A stretch of DNA of 64,000 nucleotides from Alphaproteobacteria bacterium (GTDB lineage Bacteria > Pseudomonadota > Alphaproteobacteria > Thalassobaculales > Thalassobaculaceae). Position 1 is the stretch's first letter; each line of letters begins with the position of its first letter. The notes beneath the pieces are model-generated. The model saw only the letters and a program-made list of their open reading frames with translations. It made no database searches and was not told the DNA's origin. Position numbers and translations under genes: made by a program. This document shows positions 21,283 through 39,657 of this stretch, one piece after another. Location of the stretch: positions 1 to 64,000 of the forward strand of contig JAJEAR010000054.1 of NCBI GenBank assembly GCA_022822665.1. Direction: 5' to 3'.

Positions 21283-24200
21283 ATGACTTCAGCAAACGCG
21301 GAAAACGGCGTCGCCATTGTCGGGTACAGCCATCGGCTGCCCGGCGGCATCCGGTCGGATTCCGATTTCTGGGCCCTGCTCAGCAGCCGGGAAATCGTCC
21401 AGGAACCAATCACGGACCGATACGGGAGAGGGGCCCTGCCCATCGGCAGGTATTCGGGTCCGGGACGGCTCGCAAGTCCCTACGAGGGACTGATTCGCGA
21501 CGACGACGAACTGCTGTTCGACCGCGCGTTCTTCGGCCTGTCCCACAATGAACTGATGCAGACCGAACCTCAGGTCAGGATGCTGCTCAACTGCGCCTGG
21601 GAGGCCATCGAACACGTCGGCTGGGACCTTCATTCTCTGCGCAACAGCTCCACAGGGGTCTTCGTCGGGTCCCAGGTTCCGTCCGTGGCCAACTGGCGAC
21701 CGCAGCACGGTGTCACCGAAAACTCCGTGGCCGGCCTCAGCCTGGCCATGCTGGCCAACCGGATTTCCTACCACTTCAACCTCATGGGATCCTCCGCGAC
21801 GTACTGCACCGCCTGCTCGGCCGGCCTGACGGCCCTGCACTCGGCGATGAACGCCCTTGCGTGCGGTGACTGTGACCAGGCGCTCGTCGGCGCCGTCACC
21901 TACCTGGGCAGCGTCAGGTTGAGCAGCGGCTTCAACCTCATGGGAGTCATCAGCCCGGACGGCGCCTGTCATTCCTTCGACGCCCAGGCCAACGGCTACA
22001 TGCGCTCGGAGGGAGCCTTCGTCTTCGCCATCAAGCCGCTGAGGGCGGCCGAGCGGGACGGGGACCCGATCCACGCAGTGATCGAGGCAACGTCGGTCAA
22101 TGCCGCCGGCTCGGCCGACGGCACCGCGGCCCTTGCACCGGGCCGGTACATCAGCGCGCCGACGCGCCATTCCCAGGTCCTGCTGATGCGCGAGGCGGCC
22201 GCCCGCGCCGGCCGGACACCAGGCGAGTTCGACTACGTCGAGGCGCACGCCACCGGGACCGCGGTCGGAGACCCCATCGAGGGCAACGCCATCGCCGAGG
22301 CGTTCGGTGGTGTCGGGCGTGACGTCCCGCTCCGGGTTTCCAGCGTGAAGAGCAATATCGGACACATGGAGGCTGCCGCCTTCCACTGCGCCCTGCTCAA
22401 GGTAGTCCTGATGATGGAGCGGCGTACCTTTGCGCCGGTATCGAGGAGCTTCCAGGTCCCCAATCCGGAGATCGACTTCGACAGGGCCCCCATGCGGGTG
22501 CAGACCGAGTGCGAGCCTTTCCCCGAGAACCCGGTCGTCATCGGCATCAACTCGTTCGGCTTCGGCGGAGCGAACGGACACTGCGTGGTGCGCGAGTACC
22601 GGCCGCCGCGGCCCAGGGTCTGGTCTGTGCCGCTGGCGCCTGACGCCGGCTACATGATCCCGCTGTCGGCACGCACGCCCGGCGCGCTCGCCGAAAGCGC
22701 CCGGCGCCTGGCAGGGACGCTGGACGGGCAGCAGCCGGACCTCTACACCCTCGCCGGAAACCTCAGTCGCCGACGCACCCATTTCGCGGCGCGCACGTCC
22801 TTCGTCGCGCGCGACCACGAAGAACTTGGCCGCGCCCTGAAGGAGTTTGCCGAGGAGGGTGCCCCCGTCGGCACCGCGGAGGAGGGCGAGCGGCGGGTGC
22901 TGATGGTGTTCGCCGGCCAGGGCACGCAGTGGGCCGGTTGCGGGCGAGACCTCTACGAGGCCCACCCGGTGTTCCGGCGCACCATCGACGCCATCGACGG
23001 GCACTGGCGCGCCTGTTCCGGGACCTCGCTGCGCACGGCCTGTTTCGAGGCCCCGCAGGAGGCACTGGACGAATGCGAACTGGCCCAGCCGGTAATCTTC
23101 GCTATCCAGTGCGCCCTGGTGGAGCTGTTCAGGACCTGGGGGGTCTACCCGGACTGCGTGTTGGGTCACAGCTCGGGCGAAGTGGCCGCGGCCTACGCCT
23201 CGGGCGCGCTCTCGCTCGCCGATGCGACGCGCCTGGTCTACCACCGCGCCACCCTGCAGCAGCGGGTTGCGGGGTCTGGACGCATGCTGGCCATCGGCCT
23301 CGACCTGCCGGGCGTGGAGGAACTGCTGGACTCGCTCGGGCTTCCTTTCCGCCTCGACGGCGAACAGGCGGTCCAGGTCGAGATCGCCTGCGAGAACGCT
23401 CCGGCGAATACCGTCATCTGCGGTCGCGAGGACACCCTGCGCCCGGTGATGGAGGAGCTGGACCGGCGCAACCTCCAGAACAGTCTCCTGCCCGGCAACA
23501 TCGCGTTCCACTCCCGCGCCATGGACGCGATCAGGAACGCCGCGCTCGAGGCGTTCTCCTTCCTCGACGACATTTCCTTCGAGCTCGACGTGCCGTTCGT
23601 CTCCTCGGTAACCGGCACGGAAACGGCGCGGCTGGACAGTGCCTACTGGTGGACGAACATCCGCCAGCGGGTCCGTTTCGCAGATGCGATGGAAGCCGTC
23701 AGGCGCAACCACCGACCCGACATGGTTCTTGAGCTGGCTCCGCACTCGGCCCTGCAGCCCGTCGTTGCGCAGTGCATCCAGGACATGTCGCCGGCACCCG
23801 TGCTCCTGCCAACGCTGTTGCGCGACCACGATGCGAGTACGAGCTTTCTCGAAGCGCTGGGTGCGCTCTTCAGGGCCGGCGTGACGCTGGACTTCGCCGC
23901 CCAGTATCCGCGGCCAGAGTCCATCGCCCGGCTGTTGCCGGGCCACCCGAGGGACGAGCAGAAGACCGTCGACAACAGGATGGACGACGAGTTCTTCCTG
24001 CAGCAGGGCGATTACGCGCACGGCCCGCTGGTCGGTCACCGGATCGCCAGCGACCACCTGCTGTTCGAGGCGCGGCTCAGCGAAAGGGCGTTTCCGTGGC
24101 TGGCCGAGCACCGCGTTCACCACGCGGCGATCATGCCGGCCGCCGGCTACATCGAACTGGTGCTGCAGGCTCTCGGCGGCGTTCCGGTCCACTTCGAGAT

Positions 24201-26070
24201 GCTGGAATTCCTGCAGCCCTGTCCCGTGCCGAACACGCCGGTCAGGCTGCAGACGGCCCTGTATCCGGTCCCCAACGCCACCGGTGAATACACCTTCCGG
24301 ATCTCGACGCTGCCATACGATGTCGACCCCGACTGCGAACTGCATTGCCGCGGACGGGTCCGGCTGATCGACACCGTGCCCGAACTCGATGCGCCCCAGA
24401 CCCTGTCGGACCTGGACACGTCCGGGTACGAAGCCCTGCTCTATGCGGCCGATGATGAAATCTACGAGCGTTTCGAGGTGGTTCTCGGGGAGACCTTCCA
24501 GTACGGCCCCCACTTCAGGAACATCCGCAAGCTCAGGCGCCATCCGGATACCGGCCGCCTGCTGCTGGATGTCGGGGTCGACGAGGAGCTGTGGGCAGAC
24601 GCGCGCCGCGAAGGCTACGTTGCCTTCCCGCCCCTGCTTGACGGCGGACTCCAGTCTTTTCTCTACGACCTCATGCTCGGCGCCGACCGCTTTGCCATTC
24701 CGCTTCGCGCCGAAGACGTGACCTTCATGGGCGCGCCGACGGTCCCGCGGCTCGTCTGCCAGCTGACCTATCCGGGGGGCAAGCGCTACGAAGTCGACGA
24801 CAAGGGCCAGTATGATGTGCCGAACGGCGAGTGGGTGTCCGGCAGGCTGAACTTCTACGACGCCGAGACCGGGGCGCTGGTCCTTCACGTGGGCAAGTAC
24901 ATTTCCTTCATTTCCTATCCCCGGCGTCTCGACCTGCCGCACAGCAAGCACAGCGTTGTCTGGCAGCCCAAGTTCATCGCCGACGGTCCCGCAATCGCGG
25001 ACCGTTTGCCCGACGGAGACGTCGAGCCGTCAGCCCTGCTTGCCGCCCTGGAACGGACGGATGGCGCAGGCGCACCGTTCCGCGTCTGCCACGCGCTGGA
25101 GTTCGCGGGCTCACGGACTCCGGACCAGACCGCGCTTCACGGCTGCCTCTCGCATCTCTCGCGGGAGGAGGTGCAGGGCGAGTTCTGGCTCGTCGCCGAT
25201 GACGAGGAGTGCGCGCGCGCGCACTACGACACCTTCCAGGGCCGCGACGCCGCGCTGCGCTTCGAGTGTCTCGATCCCGCCTCGGACCGGATGCCCGCGC
25301 TCGAAACCGGCCTGCTGCGCCGGCGCGCGGCGGAAGTCCTGTTCGTCCACCACGACCATGACGGGTTTGTGCCGGACGACTGGCAGTTCTGGCGGGAAAC
25401 CGCGGTCGCGGGCGGCCTGGCGCTGGTCTCGCACGAGACGCACACGGTCATCGAGCCGGGTGCCGGCTGGACCACGCTGCGGGCCGGGAGGCGGACAACG
25501 CTGGTGCAGGCCCCGGCGCATGACCGTGCCGACCTGGTCGCGAAGCCGCTGCCGGGTCCGCGCTGGGTGACGGGCGAGGACGGCAGCCTGGCGGAGGCCT
25601 GGGCATCCCTGCTCGACGATCCGCAGGTGCATCGGATTCCCGGCGAAGTCCTGGCCTCGGGCGAACCGTTCATGCCCGAAGCGCACCCGGATGCGGAGAT
25701 CATCCAGGCGATCGACTTCTTCATCGCCCCGGATCCGGAGGATCCGACCGGCGAGAGGGCAGTGTCGCAGTTCGTCGCCCTCGTCCGCGCGCTGGTTCCC
25801 TACAGGATCGAACTGGCCAGCTGCCCGTGCCGAGTGACCGTGGTAACCCGCAGGGCGGCCTTCGACACGCAGGACGCGCGCGGCAGTGCGCTGTGGGGGG
25901 CGGTGCGCAGCATGGCCGTCGAGATCGTCGAGGAGGCCGGGCTGGAGTTCCGTCTCGTGGATCTCGGCGCCGACGGCGACCTTGAGGCCCTGGCATGGCT
26001 CGCCGCCCACGACCTGCGCGAACGCGAACTGGCCGTGCGTGATGGCCGGCTGTGGCGCCGCGCGTCGTGA
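21283..26070 (+). CDS. Type I polyketide synthase KS-AT-DH-(degenerate MT)-structural KR
   Basis: 1595 residues from the ATG at 21283. The KS (about 9-430) has Cys178, His322 and His361. The AT (about 540-850) has GHSSGE with Ser630 and a malonyl-type AFHS with His743. The DH (about 900-1210) has His943 and Asp1120, but HxxxGxxxxP reads HRVHHAAIMP, with His in place of Gly. Residues about 1260-1400 follow a methyltransferase layout without a SAM-binding glycine motif, so the domain looks inactive. About 1440-1590 is the structural half of a KR (ALWGAVRSMAVEIVEEAGLE). The ER, catalytic KR and ACP are on the next gene, overlapping by 4 bp. Together they form one highly reducing module that probably acts iteratively. 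Confidence 0.92.
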   Translation: MTSANAENGVAIVGYSHRLPGGIRSDSDFWALLSSREIVQEPITDRYGRGALPIGRYSGPGRLASPYEGLIRDDDELLFDRAFFGLSHNELMQTEPQVRMLLNCAWEAIEHVGWDLHSLRNSSTGVFVGSQVPSVANWRPQHGVTENSVAGLSLAMLANRISYHFNLMGSSATYCTACSAGLTALHSAMNALACGDCDQALVGAVTYLGSVRLSSGFNLMGVISPDGACHSFDAQANGYMRSEGAFVFAIKPLRAAERDGDPIHAVIEATSVNAAGSADGTAALAPGRYISAPTRHSQVLLMREAAARAGRTPGEFDYVEAHATGTAVGDPIEGNAIAEAFGGVGRDVPLRVSSVKSNIGHMEAAAFHCALLKVVLMMERRTFAPVSRSFQVPNPEIDFDRAPMRVQTECEPFPENPVVIGINSFGFGGANGHCVVREYRPPRPRVWSVPLAPDAGYMIPLSARTPGALAESARRLAGTLDGQQPDLYTLAGNLSRRRTHFAARTSFVARDHEELGRALKEFAEEGAPVGTAEEGERRVLMVFAGQGTQWAGCGRDLYEAHPVFRRTIDAIDGHWRACSGTSLRTACFEAPQEALDECELAQPVIFAIQCALVELFRTWGVYPDCVLGHSSGEVAAAYASGALSLADATRLVYHRATLQQRVAGSGRMLAIGLDLPGVEELLDSLGLPFRLDGEQAVQVEIACENAPANTVICGREDTLRPVMEELDRRNLQNSLLPGNIAFHSRAMDAIRNAALEAFSFLDDISFELDVPFVSSVTGTETARLDSAYWWTNIRQRVRFADAMEAVRRNHRPDMVLELAPHSALQPVVAQCIQDMSPAPVLLPTLLRDHDASTSFLEALGALFRAGVTLDFAAQYPRPESIARLLPGHPRDEQKTVDNRMDDEFFLQQGDYAHGPLVGHRIASDHLLFEARLSERAFPWLAEHRVHHAAIMPAAGYIELVLQALGGVPVHFEMLEFLQPCPVPNTPVRLQTALYPVPNATGEYTFRISTLPYDVDPDCELHCRGRVRLIDTVPELDAPQTLSDLDTSGYEALLYAADDEIYERFEVVLGETFQYGPHFRNIRKLRRHPDTGRLLLDVGVDEELWADARREGYVAFPPLLDGGLQSFLYDLMLGADRFAIPLRAEDVTFMGAPTVPRLVCQLTYPGGKRYEVDDKGQYDVPNGEWVSGRLNFYDAETGALVLHVGKYISFISYPRRLDLPHSKHSVVWQPKFIADGPAIADRLPDGDVEPSALLAALERTDGAGAPFRVCHALEFAGSRTPDQTALHGCLSHLSREEVQGEFWLVADDEECARAHYDTFQGRDAALRFECLDPASDRMPALETGLLRRRAAEVLFVHHDHDGFVPDDWQFWRETAVAGGLALVSHETHTVIEPGAGWTTLRAGRRTTLVQAPAHDRADLVAKPLPGPRWVTGEDGSLAEAWASLLDDPQVHRIPGEVLASGEPFMPEAHPDAEIIQAIDFFIAPDPEDPTGERAVSQFVALVRALVPYRIELASCPCRVTVVTRRAAFDTQDARGSALWGAVRSMAVEIVEEAGLEFRLVDLGADGDLEALAWLAAHDLRERELAVRDGRLWRRAS

Positions 26071-28349
26071 GTGACCGCAACGAGTATCCGCAGGTTCCGG
26101 CCGGCGAGAACCCGCCCTACCGCCTGTTTCTCGACAACGCGGGTCAGCTCGCCGGCTTGCGGATGAAGACCTATGATCCGCCGCCCCTGGGACCGCATCA
26201 CGTCGAGATCGACGTCGCCGCCGCGGCGCTCAACTTCCGCGACGTCATGGTCACGCTGGGCCTGCTGCCGGCCCTGGCCTACGAGCGCTCGGCGCTCGGT
26301 CCCGAGGTCGGCATGGAAGCGAGCGGCGTGGTCCGGCGAGTCGGTGTGGCGGTGGAGGGAGTGGAGCCCGGCGATGCGGTCGTCTTCGTCGACGGAGGAT
26401 GCATCGCCAACCGCGTCGTGGTCGGCCAGCACCGCGTATTCCCCAAGCCCGCGGGCCTGAGCATGCAGGAGGCCGCGTCGTCGCTGTCGGTCTACGTCAC
26501 CGCGTACTACGCGATGGTTCACCTGGCCGGGCTGCGCAGGGGGCAGCGCGTTCTCATCCATTCGGCCATGGGAGGCATCGGGCAGGCCGCGATCGCGCTG
26601 GCCCACCGCGCGGGAGCGGAGATCTATGCCACGGCGGGCAGCCAGGCCAAGCGCGACCGGCTGCTGGAACTGGGCGTGCGGGCGGTGTTCGATTCCCACA
26701 GCGAGGAGTGGTACGAGGGCCTGATGAAGGCGACCGGCGGGCAGGGCGTCGACGTCGTGCTGAACTCGCTCGCCGGCGGCCATGTGCCGCTCTGTCTCCA
26801 GGCGCTCAGGTCGGGCGGCTGGCACTGCGAGATCGGCAAGGTCGACATCTACGCCGACAGTGCTCTCGGTCTCCGCGTCTTCCGCAAGAACCTGCGGTTC
26901 GCCGCCATTGACCTCGATCGCCTGATGGTCGACGACCCGTTCCTCTCGCGCGAGCTCTCCGAGACCTGCCTCGCACTGCTTGATCGCGGCGAGGTGCCGC
27001 CCCTGGAAGTCACCGTCTTCCCCTACGGCGACTACGCGAAGGCGCTCCGGCTCATGACCTCCGGACAGCACCAGGGAAAGCTGGTGCTGCAGGCGCCGTC
27101 GGCATCCTCCGCCGCGGAGTTTCCGATCAACGACCGCCGTCCGCTGCTGGACCCCCGGGGAACCTACCTGGTGACCGGCGGCCTGGGCGGTTTCGGCCTG
27201 CGGCTGCTTCCCTATCTCGTGACGGCCGGTGCCCGTCACCTCACCCTCATGGACCGCGATCCCGAACGCCGGCGCGACGAGTCCTGGCTTCGCCAGTCGA
27301 CGACCCTCGGCGACCTGGAGGAAGGTGTCGAGATCGACCTGGTCCAGGGCGACGTGGCCAACGAGGCGGACGTGCGGCGCTGCGTCGACGCCGTGAAGAA
27401 GCCGCTGAAGGGGGTGTTCCATCTTGCCGGCGTGCTGGAGGACTGTCTGCTGGCGGACCTGACGGCGGAGTCCATCGCCCGCGTCTTCGCGCCCAAGGCC
27501 CGGGGAGCGCTCAACCTGCATAACGCCACCGCCGGTCTGGCGCTCGACCACTTCGTCATGATGTCGTCCACCTCCTCGATCCTCGGCAATGCGGGCCAGA
27601 TAAACTACAGTGCGGCTAACGCGTTTCTCGACGGGCTCGCCGCCTGTCGACGAGGGCAGGGGCTGCCGGCCTTTTCCTACAATGTGACGGCCGTCGCCGA
27701 TGCGGGAATGGCTGCGCGCAATCTCGGTGTCCTGCGCCTGATGAAGGCTGCGGGAATGCCGCCCGTAAGCAGCTATTGCGCCATCTCCAACCTGGACTAC
27801 GCGCTGCGCACCATGAACGGCAGCGATCACCTGGTCACCGCGCTCTTCAAGCGCGTGCTCTGGACGATCGATTCCGCCGACTACATGCGGACCGGCCGCC
27901 TGATGAGCAACCAGGATGCGTTCGAGGTCTCCGCCGAAGAACAGCTGACGGTCGACGGCGTCATGGGGCGGATTGCCGCCAAGGTGGCCGAACTCTGCGG
28001 GCACGACGAGGGTGGCCTCGAAGAGCCGCTTTCCAGTTTCGGCCTGAATTCCATCTCGGTTGCCGAACTGGGCGCGTTCATCCAGAGCGAGTTCAACTTC
28101 CAGGCAAGCGCGCTGGAACTGATGACCACGGCCTCGTGCCAGTCGCTCGCGCACGCCATCGTCTTCGGCAGCACTTCGGGCGAGGAGATCGATCCCGACG
28201 ACGAGGATGCGTCGACCGACGCCGCAACACCTGCAGCGGAGCGTCGCGTGCGGCGCAGGCCCTCTGAGTTCGCCAGTCCGCCCGAGGACCACTTTCCGCC
28301 GGCACCCTGCTCGGGGCAGAATGCCCGGACGGCCTTCCCCGTCGGGTAG
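26067..28349 (+). CDS. Type I polyketide synthase ER-KR-ACP
   Basis: 760 residues; the GTG at 26067 overlaps the preceding stop (GTGA), indicating translational coupling. The ER (about 35-345) has ALNFRDVMVTLG and the NADPH site HSAMGGIGQAAIALAH. The KR (about 370-560) has the LVTGGLGGFGLRL nucleotide site and catalytic Ser501/Tyr514 in SSTSSILGNAGQINYSAAN. The ACP (about 630-705) has the phosphopantetheine site FGLNSISVAEL, Ser662. With the upstream protein it completes a fully reducing cycle. No thioesterase follows the ACP, so release must be by another protein; the next gene supplies a thioester reductase. Confidence 0.93.
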   Translation: MSDRNEYPQVPAGENPPYRLFLDNAGQLAGLRMKTYDPPPLGPHHVEIDVAAAALNFRDVMVTLGLLPALAYERSALGPEVGMEASGVVRRVGVAVEGVEPGDAVVFVDGGCIANRVVVGQHRVFPKPAGLSMQEAASSLSVYVTAYYAMVHLAGLRRGQRVLIHSAMGGIGQAAIALAHRAGAEIYATAGSQAKRDRLLELGVRAVFDSHSEEWYEGLMKATGGQGVDVVLNSLAGGHVPLCLQALRSGGWHCEIGKVDIYADSALGLRVFRKNLRFAAIDLDRLMVDDPFLSRELSETCLALLDRGEVPPLEVTVFPYGDYAKALRLMTSGQHQGKLVLQAPSASSAAEFPINDRRPLLDPRGTYLVTGGLGGFGLRLLPYLVTAGARHLTLMDRDPERRRDESWLRQSTTLGDLEEGVEIDLVQGDVANEADVRRCVDAVKKPLKGVFHLAGVLEDCLLADLTAESIARVFAPKARGALNLHNATAGLALDHFVMMSSTSSILGNAGQINYSAANAFLDGLAACRRGQGLPAFSYNVTAVADAGMAARNLGVLRLMKAAGMPPVSSYCAISNLDYALRTMNGSDHLVTALFKRVLWTIDSADYMRTGRLMSNQDAFEVSAEEQLTVDGVMGRIAAKVAELCGHDEGGLEEPLSSFGLNSISVAELGAFIQSEFNFQASALELMTTASCQSLAHAIVFGSTSGEEIDPDDEDASTDAATPAAERRVRRRPSEFASPPEDHFPPAPCSGQNARTAFPVG

Positions 28350-28411
28350 TATGTCTCCGTGACAGGAAAACGCCCTTCGCATCGGCGCGGCGCATCCCGG
28401 AAAGAGGCCGA

Positions 28412-30907
28412 ATGAACGTACCGAGAGATTCCGGCAGGACCGTGCCGCCGTTGGCTGGCAGGCTGCCCGCGCAATGCTGGCGCGACGTGGAGGAATTGCG
28501 CCGCCTGGTTCACGCGGTCCTCTCGCGGGAAACGCCAGCCGGCGCGGTAGCGCCGGGCGACTTTCGGGAGGTCCTGCTGACCGGGGTAACCGGCTTCGTG
28601 GGACGCTTCCTCCTGCGCGACCTCCTGCGCCAGGACAACCGGCTGATCGTGCATTGCCTGGTCCGTGCCGGGAGTGTCGAGCAGGGGTTCGCGCGGTTGC
28701 GGGACGCCCTGGAGCTGGCGGAAATCCTGGAGGATATTCCCGAAGAGCGGGTGCGGATGGTGCCCGGCGAAATTACCGGGGAACGCTTCGGCCTGGGCGA
28801 TGCGGAGTTTGACAGGCTTTGCGAGCGGATCGACGCGGTCTATCACCTTGCCGCCGACACGGGCCTCGTGCGGTCATATGCCGACATTCGCAGGACCAAT
28901 GTGCTCGGCCTGCGCCCGGTGCTCGAGCTCTGCCTGCGCACCCGCATCAAGCACCTGTTCTACGCCTCCACGATGGGCCTGTTCCCCCAGTACTTCTGCG
29001 ACTTTTCCAGGGAGCACGGCGACAGCCGCATCGACGACCAGGTGCCGCCTGACCTCGCGGAGATGAAGAAGGCCTTCCCGCTCGGCTCGCTCGGGTATCC
29101 CTGGAGCAAGCTCGTGGCCGAACAGGGCGTGCTGTTCGCGCAGGCAGCCGGAGTGCCGGTCGCAATCTTCCGTCTGCCGGGCATGGGCTTTTCCAGCACC
29201 GGGTATACCCAGGCGAACGACTTCCCGGCCCGCCTGTTTGCTGCGGCGGGACAGGCGGAAATGACGCCGACAGGCATGTCCCTGCGGCGAAATGTCGAGC
29301 CGGCCGACACCATCAGCGAAATCTGCGCGGCGATTTCACTGAATCCGGACCGGCGTTTCACGGTCTACCACTGCTGCAACACGAGCCCGCCCGGTGACGA
29401 TGTCGACATGGAGGAGTTCGGTTTCTACTGGAAAACGGTGCCCTATCAGACCTTCAGGCGGACCAGCCAGGCCTTCGGCGACAGCTCCCCGTTGCGTGGT
29501 CAGTGGGTCCTGCTCGACCACTTTGCGCCGTACTGGTTTGACGAGGACAAGACGGGTCACACGCCGCCGATCAGTGACCGCGCCATCAGGGAAGACTGTC
29601 CGCGCCCGATCAAGTGGCCGGCACCGCTGATCCGCCACGCGCGCTCCCATGAATGGATCAGGCGCAACCGGGAGCTCTGGCCCTATCCGGTTCCGCAGGG
29701 CCGCCTCGACTTCGACCGGCTTGTCGGGCAGGCCGAAACCTGCGCCGGGCACATGGGCGTTCCCTTCGACCGGACGTATCCCGAGTGGATGCGAGACGGT
29801 CTCGAACAATTGGTCGAGGCTCTCGGGCTGCCGGAGTCCGGGCTGAGGGTATCCCGGGTCAGCCACGTCGTGTACGGGTTGACCCGTATCCTTCGGAGCA
29901 ACGCGGCGCTCGCCCGCGAACGGCAGCAGAACCCGGAGATAGAGCAGGTGAGGGTCGAGCGGCCGGTGTTCATCGTCGGGATCAATCGCACCGGCACGAC
30001 TTTCCTGCACCGTCTCCTCTCGCGCGATCCGCAGTTCTGGGCGTTGCGGCGTTACGAGTTGACGGAACCCGTGCTCTCGAGCGGCGAGTACGGCGCGGTG
30101 GCGGGCACGGTGCGGGATCCCCGCCGGGCCCGGGCGGAAGAACTGATGAGCGCAACCAATATTGCCGATACTTTCGCCGGGCTTCATCGCATCGACCTGG
30201 ACGAGCCGGAAGAGGACTTCATGCTCCTCAGGCTGGCCTTCGCGTCCTGGGTCACCCTCGTTGAGCACCACGTGCCGGCGTACGGCCGCTGGCTCGCCCA
30301 GGCCGGTTCGCGCAACGCCTACGGGTTTCACCGCCTGGTCATGCAGCACTTCACGTGGCAGCGCCGGCAGAGCGACCCGCTGGGACGGCGGCGCTGGCTG
30401 CTCAAGATGCCATTTCACCTCATGGAGCTCGAGGTGTTGCTGGAGACCTATCCGGATGCCGTCTTTATCCAGACGCACCGGGAGCCGGTTCAGTTCATGG
30501 CGTCCTGGAACAGCATGGTGGAGCGCGTCCGTTCATACACCACCGAGCCGCGACCGACCCACGAGACCGGGGCCGAGCAGCTGGCGCTGATGAGCGGCAT
30601 GCTGAACGGCGCGATGCGGTTCCGCGCCGCCCGGCCGGCGCTGGCCGATCGCTGGGTCGACGTGCGCTACGACGATCTGGTCGCCGATCCGATGGCTGTC
30701 GCCAACGACATCTACGCGCGGTTCGGCTGGCCGCTCGAACCGGCTGCCGTCGACGCCATGAGGGACTGGCTGGTACTGCAGAATGAACAGCGCCGCCACG
30801 AACCGCGGCACGTGTACAGGCTGGAGGACTACGGTCTCGTGCCCGAAGCGGTGAACCGGGCATTCGCACCGTACCGGGACTTTGTCGCCGGGCGCGGATG
30901 CCTGTGA
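28412..30907 (+). CDS. Thioester reductase-sulfotransferase fusion protein
   Basis: 831 residues. The N-terminal part (about 50-340) is an extended short-chain dehydrogenase of the thioester-reductase type: VLLTGVTGFVGRFLLRDLL, YHLAADTGLV and Y229xxxK233 (YPWSK). A linker (about 340-500) contains an FAPYWFDEDKTGHTPPI segment and ELWPYPVPQG. The C-terminal part (about 515-770) is a PAPS-dependent sulfotransferase with the phosphosulfate loop FIVGINRTGTTFLHRLL (from residue 520) and the second site FIQTHREPVQFMASWNSM. It follows the ACP-ending synthase by 62 bp, so it probably reduces the ACP-bound chain to aldehyde or alcohol and sulfates the product. That order of events is inference. Confidence 0.88.
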   Translation: MNVPRDSGRTVPPLAGRLPAQCWRDVEELRRLVHAVLSRETPAGAVAPGDFREVLLTGVTGFVGRFLLRDLLRQDNRLIVHCLVRAGSVEQGFARLRDALELAEILEDIPEERVRMVPGEITGERFGLGDAEFDRLCERIDAVYHLAADTGLVRSYADIRRTNVLGLRPVLELCLRTRIKHLFYASTMGLFPQYFCDFSREHGDSRIDDQVPPDLAEMKKAFPLGSLGYPWSKLVAEQGVLFAQAAGVPVAIFRLPGMGFSSTGYTQANDFPARLFAAAGQAEMTPTGMSLRRNVEPADTISEICAAISLNPDRRFTVYHCCNTSPPGDDVDMEEFGFYWKTVPYQTFRRTSQAFGDSSPLRGQWVLLDHFAPYWFDEDKTGHTPPISDRAIREDCPRPIKWPAPLIRHARSHEWIRRNRELWPYPVPQGRLDFDRLVGQAETCAGHMGVPFDRTYPEWMRDGLEQLVEALGLPESGLRVSRVSHVVYGLTRILRSNAALARERQQNPEIEQVRVERPVFIVGINRTGTTFLHRLLSRDPQFWALRRYELTEPVLSSGEYGAVAGTVRDPRRARAEELMSATNIADTFAGLHRIDLDEPEEDFMLLRLAFASWVTLVEHHVPAYGRWLAQAGSRNAYGFHRLVMQHFTWQRRQSDPLGRRRWLLKMPFHLMELEVLLETYPDAVFIQTHREPVQFMASWNSMVERVRSYTTEPRPTHETGAEQLALMSGMLNGAMRFRAARPALADRWVDVRYDDLVADPMAVANDIYARFGWPLEPAAVDAMRDWLVLQNEQRRHEPRHVYRLEDYGLVPEAVNRAFAPYRDFVAGRGCL

Positions 30908-31049: not shown

Positions 31050-31814
31050 TTACGGCGGCATGCGGATCGCGCCGTCGAGCCGGATTACCGAGCCGTTCAT
31101 GAAGGAGTTCCGCGTGACATGAACGACGAGGGCCGCGTATTCGTCCGCACTTCCCAGGCGCCCTGGATAGACCGACGTATCGACCAGGAACTGCTTTGCC
31201 GGTCCTGACAGGCCGTCCATCATCGGCGTGTCCATCAGACCGGGGGCGATGCAGTTGACGCGTATTCCCTTGGCGGCGAGCTCGCGCGCGAGCGGCAGCG
31301 TCATCGCCGCGACACCGCCCTTCGAGGCGGCGTAGTCGAGCTGCCCGATCTGTCCCTCGAAAGCGGCGACCGAAGCGGTGGTAATGATGCAGCCGCGTTC
31401 GTTGTCATCATCCATCGGTTCCAGGGCGGCCATGTCGGCGGCGGCCAGCCGGCAGGAGTTGATAGTGCCGATCAGGTTGACCCGGACGGCACGGGTCAGT
31501 CGCTCAAGCGGGCTCGCCCTGCCATCCCGTCCCGTCAGCCTTGTGCCTGGAGCGATGCCGGCGCAGGCAACCAGGATGCGCGCCGGACCCAACCGCTCGC
31601 GCACTGCAGCGACAGCGGCCTCGCGGCTCGCGGAGTCGGCCACGTCGCACACCACGGCGACACCATCGACCCGTGCCGCAACCCTTCCTGCCAGCTCCTC
31701 GTTCGTGTCCAGGATTCCGACCCTGGCACCGGCCTGCGCAAGGGCTCGCGCCGTTGCCTCTCCCAGTCCCGACGCGCCTCCGGTGACGATCGCCGTTTGC
31801 CCGTTGACATCCAT
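31050..31814 (-). CDS. Short-chain dehydrogenase, type II 3-hydroxyacyl-CoA dehydrogenase-like
   Basis: 254 residues from the ATG at 31814. It has the NAD site TGGASGLGEATARAL, NAG-equivalent VACAG, catalytic Ser in TTASVAAFEG and YAASK, and the C-terminal RLGSADEYAALVVHV. The pattern, including the TASVAAFEGQIGQ loop, resembles HSD17B10-type 3-hydroxyacyl-CoA dehydrogenases. It converges with the reductase-sulfotransferase gene and may act in lipid metabolism or be unrelated to the polyketide pathway. Confidence 0.85.
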   Translation of the reverse strand: MDVNGQTAIVTGGASGLGEATARALAQAGARVGILDTNEELAGRVAARVDGVAVVCDVADSASREAAVAAVRERLGPARILVACAGIAPGTRLTGRDGRASPLERLTRAVRVNLIGTINSCRLAAADMAALEPMDDDNERGCIITTASVAAFEGQIGQLDYAASKGGVAAMTLPLARELAAKGIRVNCIAPGLMDTPMMDGLSGPAKQFLVDTSVYPGRLGSADEYAALVVHVTRNSFMNGSVIRLDGAIRMPP

Positions 31815-32129
31815 GCCTGGCTCGCTCGCTGATCCGGCATCTGCATAGCAAGACGCTGCCCGGCCATGCAAAGGCGAGGGTCTGAGACCGCAAGGTGGTA
31901 TCCTGGCCCGGGTCCGGGATGCGTTGCGCCCATGCATGTCCGAACGGCGACCCCTGCTTCCCTGCTCCGACTATCCGGGTTGGTGCGGGAAGCGATGTTC
32001 CGCTGCCTGGCGAAGCTGTGGCGTGGAGGGCGAAAGGAGCGCCGCAACGCCTCCGTGCCGAACATGGCCGGAGTGCGCGGAGTCGCACGACATGAGGGTC
32101 AGGTCCGCCACCCCGGCGGACTCGCGCCC
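31815..32129. other. Spacer without a gene
   Basis: About 315 bp upstream of the dehydrogenase. Frames on both strands are shadows; no domain is seen. It ends where similarity to the region before the molybdenum hydroxylase begins. Confidence 0.4.
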
Positions 32130-32325
32130 GTCCGTCGTGGCCCGCCAATACGGCGGTATCCTGTCGCCGCTGCCGGCAACCGGAATGGAGGAGGTGGCGA
32201 GGACGGTGTACCGCCCCGACCGGGCAGCCGGTGCAGTATCCGCAAACGCCCCGTAGTGCCGGGAGGACATGCGGTTGCTCACTGGCCGGGGAGAGTTGCT
32301 CGACGGCCTCGCCTTTCCCGGCGGC
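32130..32325 (+). pseudogene. Partial copy of the molybdenum hydroxylase promoter and 5' end
   Basis: About 196 bp is roughly 80-85% identical, by eye, to 34883-35076, covering the upstream region and the first 40 codons of the gene at 34953. The equivalent start ATG at 32200 is AGG, and a TAG at 32254-32256 interrupts (AP*CRED versus APLRRED). LLTGRGELLDGLAFPG is still readable. The copy ends in the FitB-like remnant. With the intact gene it forms direct repeats flanking the radical SAM gene. Confidence 0.8.
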
Positions 32326-32468
32326 ATGATCGCGAGGCCGAAGCGCAAATCCGCCTCGCCGACTGCCACGAGGTACAGGCTCGATGTTGCACGCTTTCCG
32401 ATAAACGACACGATCACGACATTCGGCGCGGGGCGCATCAGTTCGCACAGCACGGTCGTATCGACCAC
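32320..32468 (-). pseudogene. Truncated FitB-type PIN toxin remnant
   Basis: On the minus strand from 32468: VVDTTVLCELMRPAPN, then SLYLVAVGEADLRFGLAIMPPGK. This is the N-terminal third of a VapC/FitB PIN ribonuclease, including its first active-site Asp and the Glu of the AEADLR-like motif. Beyond it the frame runs into antisense sequence of the molybdenum hydroxylase copy, so about 80 residues with the remaining acidic residues are lost. Confidence 0.7.
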
Positions 32469-32484
32469 CAGCGTCGCCGACGCC

Positions 32485-32700
32485 TCGGTCGAAGCGCGGC
32501 GGCAGTTCGAGTTCCACGCCGCCGTAAGGTGCGAAGCACTCGAGGATGAAGGCTGCCAGATCCTCCGGCTCGCCTTCCCGTCAGACCGCCTCGCGCTGAA
32601 TCTGTCGTGCCTGCTGCGTCGAATGGCCGTGGTTCGCCGCCCGCGTGCGGAGCCGGGTGCTCACGTCGTCGTCCGGATTGTGGATGGTGATGCTGGCCAT
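32485..32700 (-). pseudogene. FitA-type antitoxin remnant with internal stop
   Basis: The ATG at 32700 begins MASITIHNPDDDVSTRLRTR, an evident FitA ribbon-helix-helix start. After QIQREAV a TGA (32581-32583) replaces the usual Gly codon, and the second half stays readable: REGEPEDLAAFILECFAPYG, then VELELPPRF. One residue of the usual EEEA stretch is also missing. It lies directly before the truncated PIN toxin, in normal fitAB order. Confidence 0.75.
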
Positions 32701-32837
32701 GTCCGAGTTCCGGGCCGCGACATCGAACGTCGGTTGCTCGGGGATTGCGTTGCAATCAGGCAGAGGCTGCACTGGACCGAGAAGCCGGCAATGCAGTAAC
32801 ATTGCAACCGGCTAGGCAACAGAGGCCGGTCACGACC

Positions 32838-34610
32838 ATGCCGAACGCCCTGCTCGTTTACCCGGAGCAGCCTCCCACCTTCTGGGGGGCCGAATACGCG
32901 CTCGAAATCTCGAGGATCAAGGCGACCTTTCCGCCCCTGGGGCTGCTGACTGTCGCCGCCATGTTTCCTGCGCACTACACGCTCCGCGTGGTGGACATGA
33001 ACGTGATGGCCTTGCAGGACGCCGATCTCGCGTGGGCGGACCTGGTTTTCACGTCCACGATGATCACACACCACCTGTCGCTCCAAGCCGTGGTCGAGCG
33101 CTGCAACGACGCAGGCGTTCCGGTGGTGGCAGGCGGGCCGCACCCCACCACGTTTCACGAGGACATCGCCGGCGTGAGTCACTTCGTGCTGGGCGAGGTC
33201 GAGGAGATCTTTGCGGAGTTCCTTCGGGATCTCGAAGAGGGTGCCGCAAGACCCCTCTACCGGGAGACAGGCAAGCCGGCCGTGACCCGAACGCCGATCC
33301 CGCGCTTCGACCTCATCGACATGAAGAACTACGCCACGATGAGCGTGCAGTTTTCCCGCGGTTGCCCGTTCGACTGCGAGTTCTGCGACATCATCAAGCT
33401 CTATGGCCGCGTGCCACGCACGAAGTCGCCGGAGCAGGTCGTGGCGGAACTGGACTCTCTCTACCGGCTGGGCTGGCGCGGCCCCGTCTTCCTGGTCGAC
33501 GACAACTTCATCGGCAACAAGCGAGATGCCATGAACGTGCTGCCCGCGATCGCCGCCTGGCAGAAGGCCAGGAGGTATCCGTTCACGCTGATCACGGAAG
33601 CCAGCGCGAATCTCGCACTGTTGGAAGAGTTGATGGACGCCATGACCGAGGCCGGTTTCGATACCGTGTTCGTCGGCATCGAGACACCGAACCCGGAGGC
33701 CCTGCTCAAGACCAAGAAGCAGCAGAACACCAGCAAGACCGAAGAGAACTTCCTCTTCAGCGCCGTTCGCAAGATCCAGCAACACGGAATGCAGGTGCAG
33801 GGCGGGTTCATCCTGGGCCTGGATGGCGATGGCGAGGGCGTGTTCGACGCCCAGATCGAATTCATCCAGCAGACCGGCATTCCCGTGGCTCCCATCTACT
33901 TGCTGACTGCCCTGAAGGGCACGGACATGTACGCGCGCATGAAGGCGGAAAACCGGCTTCTCGAGACGCAGATCGGCACAAACGGCATGTATCTCAATTT
34001 CAGGACGGAGATGGATTACGATACGTTGATCGAGGGATACAAGCGGGTGATCGTCTCGCTCTACGACCCGACTCTGGAGCGCTATTTCGAGCGCTGCCTG
34101 ACCCTGTTCCAGCACTGGAAGCCTGCTCCGCACCTTCGAAAATCGGGGAACAAGGACAAGACCTTCGCAGCCCTCATGGGCGTGCGCCGCTGTCTCTCCG
34201 CCCGCCAGATGCCCGCCTTTTCGACGTTCATCGGCAAGGTGTCCAGGGACTATCCCCGCATGCTCCCCGACGCGATCTACCTGGCGGCCCTGGGCTACCA
34301 CTTCGAGCGAATCGGCCGTCAGCAGATCGCCATCCACGACTTTCTGAGCCTCCTGCGGGGAGAGCTGGAGACGTTCCGGGCGGCGGTCCCGGATCCCGCT
34401 TCAGCGGTGGAGGCATTCAGGAGCCGCCGGCAGGCGTCGTTCGAGCGCGCCCGGAAACACTACGAGTCCATACCCGACGAGTTTCGATACCAGGGAGACG
34501 GCCTGCACGATGCGCTGGCGTCCTTCCAGTGCGCGGTGGACAGGCGCGCAAGCGCGGTCGCACACTCCCGGGAACAATTCCCGGTCGCGCTGGGTGCCGG
34601 GGATCACTGA
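32838..34610 (+). CDS. B12-binding radical SAM enzyme (DUF4070 family)
   Basis: 590 residues from the ATG at 32838. The N-terminal cobalamin-binding-like domain (about 1-140) lacks the DxHxxG motif in clear form. The radical SAM core has the CxxxCxxC cluster at Cys176/180/183 (FSRGCPFDCEFCDII), with FLVDDNFIGNKRDA, FVGIETPNPEALLKTKK and GFILGLDGDGEGVFDAQ, characteristic of the subgroup with a C-terminal DUF4070, which includes the hopanoid methylase HpnP. Methylation of an unactivated carbon, possibly in a lipid, is a reasonable guess but the substrate is unknown. The gene lies between the two direct repeats. Confidence 0.88.
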   Translation: MPNALLVYPEQPPTFWGAEYALEISRIKATFPPLGLLTVAAMFPAHYTLRVVDMNVMALQDADLAWADLVFTSTMITHHLSLQAVVERCNDAGVPVVAGGPHPTTFHEDIAGVSHFVLGEVEEIFAEFLRDLEEGAARPLYRETGKPAVTRTPIPRFDLIDMKNYATMSVQFSRGCPFDCEFCDIIKLYGRVPRTKSPEQVVAELDSLYRLGWRGPVFLVDDNFIGNKRDAMNVLPAIAAWQKARRYPFTLITEASANLALLEELMDAMTEAGFDTVFVGIETPNPEALLKTKKQQNTSKTEENFLFSAVRKIQQHGMQVQGGFILGLDGDGEGVFDAQIEFIQQTGIPVAPIYLLTALKGTDMYARMKAENRLLETQIGTNGMYLNFRTEMDYDTLIEGYKRVIVSLYDPTLERYFERCLTLFQHWKPAPHLRKSGNKDKTFAALMGVRRCLSARQMPAFSTFIGKVSRDYPRMLPDAIYLAALGYHFERIGRQQIAIHDFLSLLRGELETFRAAVPDPASAVEAFRSRRQASFERARKHYESIPDEFRYQGDGLHDALASFQCAVDRRASAVAHSREQFPVALGAGDH

Positions 34611-34952
34611 GGCTGCTCTCGCCGCGGGTTGTTCGCGGGAGCCTCGAACCTGTGTGGCCGCCGTCACGGCGTTCTTTCGAAGCCGCCGAACGGCGTTTTC
34701 GGGCATATCGCGCGTGAGTGCCCTGCGTCGGCGGCAGACCCGGCATGATCCGTGCGCTCTTGTGGTGACGCCTGTGGGAACTGGAGCTGTGTGCTCGGGA
34801 TGTCGGCGAGGGCATCCAGTACGCGGGCGGCATGGTGGCGTATCGCCATCGCGTTCGACCCCGTCCCGGCAGAATCGCTCCTGTCCGTCGTGGCCCGCCG
34901 GTGTGGCGGTATCCTATAGTCGCTGTCGGCGACCGGGATGGAGGACGTGGCG
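34611..34952. promoter_or_regulatory. Upstream region of the molybdenum hydroxylase, partly repeated
   Basis: No gene in 342 bp. From 34883 it matches 32130 onward, so the promoter-proximal part was duplicated with the coding start. GGAGGA at 34941-34946 is a good ribosome binding site for the ATG at 34953. Confidence 0.5.
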
Positions 34953-38269: not shown

Positions 38270-38424
38270 CTGACGCCTCCCCGTGCGCATGTTGTCCGGC
38301 CTGACCCTATAGCAGACACCGGGCCCGGGCCGGAACCGGCCCATTGCAGACCTTGACAAGGCCCCGCGAGATAGGCAAAGGCATGGGGGCGGTGGTACGG
38401 ACCAGGCACGGGGAATCAGGCCCG

Positions 38425-39657
38425 ATGCTGTCGTTAGACTTGATCGGCCGGCACATCAGAGCCGGAACTCTTCACATTACCGACGCGGCCGGTCGCAGGC
38501 ACAGCTTCGTCGGAGATGGAGGGCCGGAGGTTGCAATCCGCCTGACCGATCACGGTTTTCTGCGCCGCCTGGCCCTGCAGCCGGAACTCGCGATCGGCGA
38601 AGCCTACATGGACGGGCACCTGGTGCTCGAACAGGGTACGGTCTACGAGTTTCTCGAGATCCTGTTCGACGCCCGGGAAAAGATGGATTGTGGCGGGTTC
38701 CGCACCCTGCTGACCAGGATCGGCGACCGGATCAAGCTGTTGGCGGCGGCCAATCCGGTCAGACGCTCGCGGCGCAATGTCGAGCACCACTACGACCTGA
38801 AGGACGAGCTGTTCGAGCTGTTCCTCGACCGCGGCCGGCAGTATTCGTGCGCCTACTTCGCCGAGCCGGACGCGGACCTCGAGACCGCCCAGCACCGCAA
38901 GAAGCTGCACATCGCCGCCAAGCTTCTGCCCGAGACCGGTACCAGGCTGCTCGACATCGGTTCGGGCTGGGGCGGGCTGGGGATGTTCCTTGCGCGCTTC
39001 GGGTCCTTCTCGGTCGACGGGGTCACGCTCTCACACGAACAGCACGACTACAGCAACCGCATGGCCCGGGATGCGGGACTCGGCAACCGGGTCCAGTTCC
39101 ACCTGAAGGACTACCGCCAGGTCGAGGAGACCTACGACCGTATCGTTTCGGTCGGCATGCTCGAACATGTCGGTCCCGCCAACTACGCAACCTTCTATTC
39201 CCAGGTTTCCCGAATGCTGCGCGAGAACGGTGTCGCGCTCATTCACTCGATCGGAGCGTTCCGGAAGATCGGGCCGATCAACGGCTGGATGTCGCGCTAT
39301 ATCTTCCCGGGAGGCTACATACCCGCGCTCTCGGAACAGATGGTCCACATCGAGCGCGCCGGGCTGCTTGTGACCGACATCGAGATCCTGCGGCTTCACT
39401 ACGCCGAGACCCTGCGGCTCTGGAACCAGGCCTTCCAGCGAAACCGGGAGAAGGCCCGGGCACTTTACGACGAGCGGTTCTGCCGCATGTGGGAGTTGTA
39501 CCTGAACGGGTGCGAGGTGTGTTTCCGCCGTCGCGTGCTGATGGTGTTCCAGGTCCAGCTCGCCAAGTCGCTGGACGCGGTGCCCATGACCCGCGACTAC
39601 ATCAACGAATTCGAACGGCGTTACCTGAACACTCCCGACGGTCTGGCGGCTTCGTGA
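38425..39657 (+). CDS. cfa: Cyclopropane-fatty-acyl-phospholipid synthase
   Basis: 410 residues from the ATG at 38425; earlier in-frame starts at 38344 and 38383 exist. The N-terminal lipid-binding part is followed by a SAM methyltransferase core: EHHYDLKDELFELFLDRGRQ, LDIGSGWGGLGMFLA, HVGPANYATFYSQV and the FPGGYIPALS loop. It adds a methylene bridge across cis double bonds of membrane lipids. The stop overlaps the next start (GTGA), starting a tight four- or five-gene unit. Confidence 0.93.
   Translation: MLSLDLIGRHIRAGTLHITDAAGRRHSFVGDGGPEVAIRLTDHGFLRRLALQPELAIGEAYMDGHLVLEQGTVYEFLEILFDAREKMDCGGFRTLLTRIGDRIKLLAAANPVRRSRRNVEHHYDLKDELFELFLDRGRQYSCAYFAEPDADLETAQHRKKLHIAAKLLPETGTRLLDIGSGWGGLGMFLARFGSFSVDGVTLSHEQHDYSNRMARDAGLGNRVQFHLKDYRQVEETYDRIVSVGMLEHVGPANYATFYSQVSRMLRENGVALIHSIGAFRKIGPINGWMSRYIFPGGYIPALSEQMVHIERAGLLVTDIEILRLHYAETLRLWNQAFQRNREKARALYDERFCRMWELYLNGCEVCFRRRVLMVFQVQLAKSLDAVPMTRDYINEFERRYLNTPDGLAAS

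Follow-up and report, generated by a model that had tools for sequence, protein, structure and literature searches.

What does a bacterium make with a reducing polyketide synthase (PKS) followed by a thioester reductase that is fused to a sulfotransferase, and is this a known arrangement? The question is raised by positions 21283-30907 of the stretch analysed here, which we call the window: 64,000 nucleotides of an alphaproteobacterial genome assembly (contig JAJEAR010000054.1). A sequence-only reading had described three consecutive genes without a thioesterase, had proposed an alkyl-sulfate-type lipid as the product, and knew of no named pathway with this arrangement. On the last point it was wrong: the region is a copy of an already described gene cluster of sponge-associated bacteria, swf, for 'sponge widespread fatty acid synthase' (Della Sala 2013, PMC3908369). 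The features of the locus are:

21283..26070, plus strand: 5' part of swfA, with KS at about 21307-22608, AT at 22906-23883, DH at 24025-24735 and a structural pseudo-KR reaching to about 26055 (Pfam, motifs); EPQVR at 21565, TACSA at 21808, HATGT at 22246, QCALVEL at 23107, GHSSGE at 23164, IAFH at 23500, and the DH His and Asp motifs at 24109 and 24634
26052..26070, plus strand: frame break in swfA, one base fewer than in relatives, with TGA at 26068-26070 (alignment with L002 and L004, ORF comparison with L002-L005)
26052..28349, plus strand: 3' part of swfA, with ER at about 26136-27092, KR at 27159-27860 and ACP at 27969-28160, its Ser in GLNSI at 28041-28055 (Pfam, motifs, identity to relatives)
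28412..30907, plus strand: swfB, reductase at about 28544-29580 (T187, Y229, K233) fused to a PAPS sulfotransferase at about 29687-30900 (Pfam/NCBIfam, PDB profile search, model of the sulfotransferase domain); PAPS 5' loop GINRTGTTFLHR, 3' loop THREPVQFMASW
31050..31937, minus strand: short-chain dehydrogenase (SDR) between swfB and swfC (Pfam)
32796..34610, plus strand: swfC, B12-binding radical SAM protein with CPFDCEFC (CX3CX2C) (Pfam, motif, identity); start uncertain (TTG 32745, GTG 32796 or ATG 32838)

The domains and their order are as first read. Pfam places KS, AT and DH in the first open reading frame, ER, KR and ACP in the second, and NAD_binding_4 (thioester reductase) plus Sulfotransfer_3 in the third, and it finds no thioesterase in any of the three, in line with the earlier claim. 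Catalytic motifs are intact in the KS (TACSA, HATGT, NIGH), AT (GHSSGE), DH (H and D), ER, KR (YSAAN) and ACP (GLNSI). Two details had to be corrected. Of the supposed 'MT-like' region and structural KR, only the latter stands, as the usual pseudo-KR: Pfam gives no methyltransferase match between the DH and the break, and we reject such a domain in SwfA. The three genes, moreover, are two, since a missing base near 26,057 splits one swfA into the first two frames. The four relatives that were compared initially (L002-L005) have both window frames in a single gene of at least about 2350 codons, and the 3' part is 68-91% identical to the last third of SwfA proteins that are encoded in one frame.

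The published clusters (Plakortis simplex fosmids PS11G3 and PSA11D7; poribacterial POR_0547-0550) encode a SwfA with the order KS-AT-DH-ER-KR-ACP, a SwfB that joins reductase and sulfotransferase and, in all but one cluster, a B12 radical SAM protein, SwfC; the SwfA signatures are a change of the second Q of DPQQR to I or V, HATGT, GHSSGE, IAFH and QCALVEL (PMC3908369). A motif search finds five of five in the window, EPQVR and HATGT in the KS and the other three in the AT. The synthase has the same monomodular order (read over both frames, as the single frame of the relatives allows), the adjoining fusion has 831 aa compared with 832-839 aa in the published proteins, and the radical SAM gene is present as well. 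It is these motifs, the gene set and the lengths that indicate kinship to the published swf proteins. The window differs in its alphaproteobacterial host, in the cut of swfA (at about residue 1590, as against about 1108 between POR_0547 and POR_0548), and in the place of swfC, which lies 1.9 kb past swfB beyond the minus-strand SDR, whereas the published gene directly adjoins swfB.

Two PKS families have been described as widespread in the microbiomes of sponges, and swf is one of them; swf-like clusters were later found in Nitrospirota, Latescibacterota and Acidobacteriota (PMC9426513) and in Tectomicrobia (PMC10227082). The product was unknown in 2013, and later papers still call the function unknown. 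The 2013 authors had proposed release as a primary sulfate; expression of the whole P. simplex cluster with a phosphopantetheinyl transferase in E. coli gave no new compound by LC-MS (PMC3908369). What the present analysis adds is a link of swfB to sulfate activation genes and, less firmly, to an RND pump, together with the co-occurrence of SwfA and SwfB and a sulfotransferase fold nearer to the mycobacterial enzymes STF1 and STF9 than to olefin-forming sulfotransferases. The relative of the same genus (G001; the window genome is G000) is, we assume, the MAG 'Alphaproteobacteria bacterium bin52' from the sponge Aplysina aerophoba; the further homologue-bearing genomes look like sponge MAGs, judged by name only.

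Can the cluster be active in this genome when its synthase is cut in two? The missing base, near 26,054-26,060, is the only uncompensated indel in swfA relative to G001, and it may be an assembly error or a recent real frameshift; the sequence fits either. If real, it could mean that swfA is broken and no product is made, and two observations lean that way: the operon can be lost, as a deletion scar in a Nitrospirota genome indicates, and a second APS-kinase copy in the window genome is broken too. Against this, dN/dS relative to G001 is 0.17 before the break and 0.18 after it (0.27 for SwfB), and the equally low values on either side imply that both halves are functional now or were until recently. 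The remainder of the cluster is intact, and an assembly error of one base, or separate translation of the halves (the poribacterial gene likewise consists of two frames; PMC3908369), would explain the break equally well. We consider decay in the window genome improbable.

The cluster also does not end at 30907, where the sequence-only reading had set its boundary, missing swfC at 32.8-34.6 kb on the far side of the SDR. SwfC is 57-67% identical to the product of the gene that lies between swfA and swfB in Nitrospirota; no functional NCBIfam model scores above its cut-off against it. The gene is absent altogether from G001 and from another carrier, G488. Its segment, window 32322-34907, is missing at the same place in G001 and was thus gained in the window genome or lost in G001. 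The SDR is in the same place in G001 and is not beside swfB in other swf loci. A promoter scan was empty, and terminator predictions were at chance level. Farther on, at 38344-39657, a methyltransferase resembling cyclopropane-fatty-acid synthase lies downstream of an aldo/keto reductase and a molybdopterin dehydrogenase; this stretch is syntenic in G001 and gives no sign of a link to swf.

How the chain is released and modified depends on SwfB. Its reductase scores 179 bits against the NCBIfam thioester reductase model TIGR01746, below the 213-bit cut-off, and has the motifs TGVTGFVG, YASTMG and GYPWSK; by PDB profile search its nearest relatives in sequence are MxaA-R, which we take to be a four-electron enzyme, and a Streptomyces PKS reductase. 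For the sulfotransferase half the same kind of search puts M. tuberculosis STF1 closest among solved structures. Both PAPS loops are intact, and the conservation of their residues extends from SwfB to stand-alone homologues. A model of full-length SwfB, with an overall pLDDT of 56.7, is of poor quality over the reductase and, compared with viral structures by Foldseek, recovered generic sulfotransferases only. The sulfotransferase domain, refolded alone with 15 sequences, gave a model with pLDDT 92.5 and pTM 0.91, which aligns with STF9 (2z6v) at Z 41.1 and rmsd 2.8 over 376 residues and with STF1 (2zq5) at Z 39.5 and rmsd 2.8 over 360 residues. With its loops intact and its confident predicted fold, the domain appears to be a PAPS sulfotransferase, and the possible lack of PAPS-contacting residues that the earlier reading had allowed for is not seen in the model.

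Known systems share parts of this design. STF1 and STF9, the closest solved structures (26-31% identity over 360-376 residues), have no reductase fusion. Olefin synthase and curacin CurM likewise link a PAPS sulfotransferase to a PKS, but there it precedes a thioesterase and drives decarboxylation, whereas in the window it follows a reductase and no thioesterase is found by Pfam in the three frames. The fold agrees with this contrast, which the earlier reading had drawn: the model reaches Z scores of only 12.9 with the curacin sulfotransferase (4gbm) and 12.1 with that of the olefin synthase (4gox). On the missing thioesterase and the fold we reject an olefin-forming enzyme. Coccidian fatty acid synthases carry a contiguous reductase and sulfotransferase, as SwfB does (PMC3908369). 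The type I synthase of Cryptosporidium also ends reducing modules with a thioester reductase, CpFAS1-R, which reduces very-long-chain (C20-C26) acyl-CoA; unlike the window system it is one giant multimodular eukaryotic protein loaded by an acyl ligase (PMC2995488). Finally, WcbR and RkpA, the capsule-associated PKSs, are likewise monomodular and reducing. Their KS motifs are DPQQR and HGTGT, as against EPQVR and HATGT here, and no capsule genes are seen near the window swf; we rule this assignment out on the motifs.

R domains release ACP thioesters reductively and PAPS sulfotransferases sulfate hydroxyls, and from this a pathway can be proposed. SwfA would act as a single-module, presumably iterative and fully reducing type I PKS/FAS that uses malonyl units to build a saturated chain, of a length that we can only infer, on the ACP of the same protein. 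The reductase of SwfB would use NAD(P)H to free the chain from its ACP thioester as an aldehyde and then, probably, as the primary alcohol of a four-electron reduction, to which the sulfotransferase would transfer sulfate from PAPS, presumably at the terminal position. SwfC, where present, may methylate the chain. The alkyl-sulfate-type product is probably exported, in several lineages perhaps by an RND pump linked to the cluster or co-occurring with it. We give this whole reading, a swf cluster that makes a reductively released, O-sulfated and exported alkyl-sulfate-type lipid, a probability of about 0.6. Counted against it are the failure to detect any product so far, the E. coli expression included, the frame break in the window swfA, the position of cysNC and the pump on other contigs in the window's genus, and four Nitrospirota genomes without a close pump. 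A literature search on sponge alkyl sulfates, limited in reach, found nothing relevant.

The same enzymes could work in a different order, the sulfotransferase acting while the chain is still on the ACP, on a hydroxyl, internal or beta, that remains where a DH/ER cycle was skipped, and the reductase then releasing an aldehyde or alcohol that is already sulfated. Reductive steps can be skipped by iterative PKSs, as the 2013 authors remark, and the curacin sulfotransferase does act on a beta-hydroxyacyl-ACP (PMC3908369). Every reductive domain of SwfA, however, has intact motifs, the fold is far from the curacin and olefin-synthase enzymes and close to STF1 and STF9, and a decarboxylative route would lack its thioesterase (Pfam), so that we find this order unlikely. 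Nor do we favour the view that the reductase stops at the aldehyde, which then feeds another lipid (an ether lipid, a wax or a polysaccharide anchor), with the sulfotransferase acting on that larger acceptor. Two-electron R domains are common, and an SDR adjoins swfB in the window. One published cluster contains an oxidoreductase gene, and the first annotation of swf was as a wcb/rkp capsule-associated PKS (PMC3908369). Yet the genes common to the loci include no capsule, glycosyltransferase or acyltransferase gene, reductase and sulfotransferase are fused and co-inherited with SwfA, and the closest solved R domain, MxaA-R, is the presumed four-electron enzyme; this fate of the aldehyde seems to us rather unlikely.

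The gene cysNC, which encodes a GTPase and APS kinase, lies near swfB in five genomes (G490, G663, G555, G488 and G746; Pfam-confirmed in four). In the three Nitrospirota (G490, G663 and G555) the APS-kinase match is 1.8-1.9 kb from swfB; the distance is 4.0 kb for G488 and 4.8 kb for G746. None of the five has a strong APS-kinase match besides this cysNC. The Nitrospirota cases may go back to one common arrangement, which leaves about three independent observations. cysD is also at the locus in G488 and G746. In a further Nitrospirota genome, G489, swfB is interrupted by the end of its contig, and the same small neighbour gene closes the contig that carries cysNC, which would fit an unchanged gene order. 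The genus of the window has cysNC and the RND pump apart from swf, on other contigs; in the window genome contig C29 carries cysD-cysNC close to a further sulfotransferase gene. The second APS-kinase copy, disrupted by a frameshift or a stop, is on C29 as well (L050:6847-7276), near the intact cysD-cysNC.

In two genomes the cluster has an RND pump and its adaptor as direct neighbours, next to swfA in G488 and next to swfB in G746; in a third, the Nitrospirota genome G571, such a pump is near the swf deletion scar. G000 and G001 also have a pump of this kind (48% identity), and at that level it is in none of 96 other relatives; the two genomes are one genus, so this co-occurrence is one evolutionary observation. 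The other four Nitrospirota swf genomes have RND pumps of only 32-34% identity, the close pump being absent. With swfB linked to a PAPS gene and, in some genomes, to a pump, an exported sulfated lipid is no longer a guess based on domain names but a prediction that can be tested. The linkage also suggests what the heterologous host might have lacked when expression failed, namely enough PAPS and the pump.

How is the cluster distributed? Fusion homologues occur in MAGs labelled Alphaproteobacteria and Nitrospirota, with the same gene set and identities of 54-90% for SwfA and 44-87% for SwfB. The full-length fusion was found in two of 98 near relatives (G000 and G001), in the window genome only among 398 sampled Pseudomonadota, in three of 198 sampled Nitrospirota, which hold one truncated copy besides, and in two of 149 genomes around G488; these counts are samples, two of them centred on known carriers. 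SwfA accompanies SwfB in eight of eight genomes, at full length in seven and truncated by the end of a contig in one; a ninth, G571, has only the scar, and most sampled genomes have neither protein. The earlier reading had held that fusions occurring without a PKS would speak against it, and among the genomes sampled we found no such full-length fusion. G746, with SwfB near fabD-fabG-acpP-fabF, had seemed a candidate and was rejected: SwfA is found at a distance of about 10 kb, separated from it by cysD, cysNC and the pump. Other Pseudomonadota sulfotransferase matches inspected (G413, G154, G077) are encoded within long open frames as stand-alone enzymes, not as fusions, and the viral contigs searched contain no relative.

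Across genome pairs the identities of SwfA and SwfB correlate (r = 0.83). Alphaproteobacterial and Nitrospirota SwfA are about 65% identical over about 2350 residues, and this similarity across phyla, together with the patchy distribution, points to a probable spread by horizontal transfer, as judged from identities and occurrence. More tentatively, swf could be a mobile cross-phylum sulfolipid module of PKS/FAS, reductase-sulfotransferase, PAPS supply and RND exporter, diversified by recombination inside swfB. It would allow sponge symbionts of unrelated lineages to produce alkyl sulfates and export them, perhaps as a shared signal, surfactant or surface coat; we hold this to be conceivable, with the odds somewhat against it.

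Three further observations concern the relatives. On contig C42 of the window genome (L083:3662-14026) a 3454-aa PKS with the order KS-AT-DH-MT-ER-KR-ACP-KS-AT is located beside an NCS2-type permease; it has long-frame relatives (3230-3454 aa) in seven of nine other genomes searched, G001 and G645 being the exceptions and the swf-less G571 among the seven. In G571 itself (L047:9665-10629, on a contig of 2,346,994 bases) SwfA residues 1-49 run straight into SwfB residues 553-830, a deletion scar around which the flanking genes and the RND pump are still there. Between the Nitrospirota genomes G490 (L005:10559-12124) and G663 (L046) the swf loci are about 87-90% identical in DNA and SwfA is 95% identical, whereas SwfB residues of about 195-715 share only about 41-67% protein identity, a mosaic replacement inside swfB.
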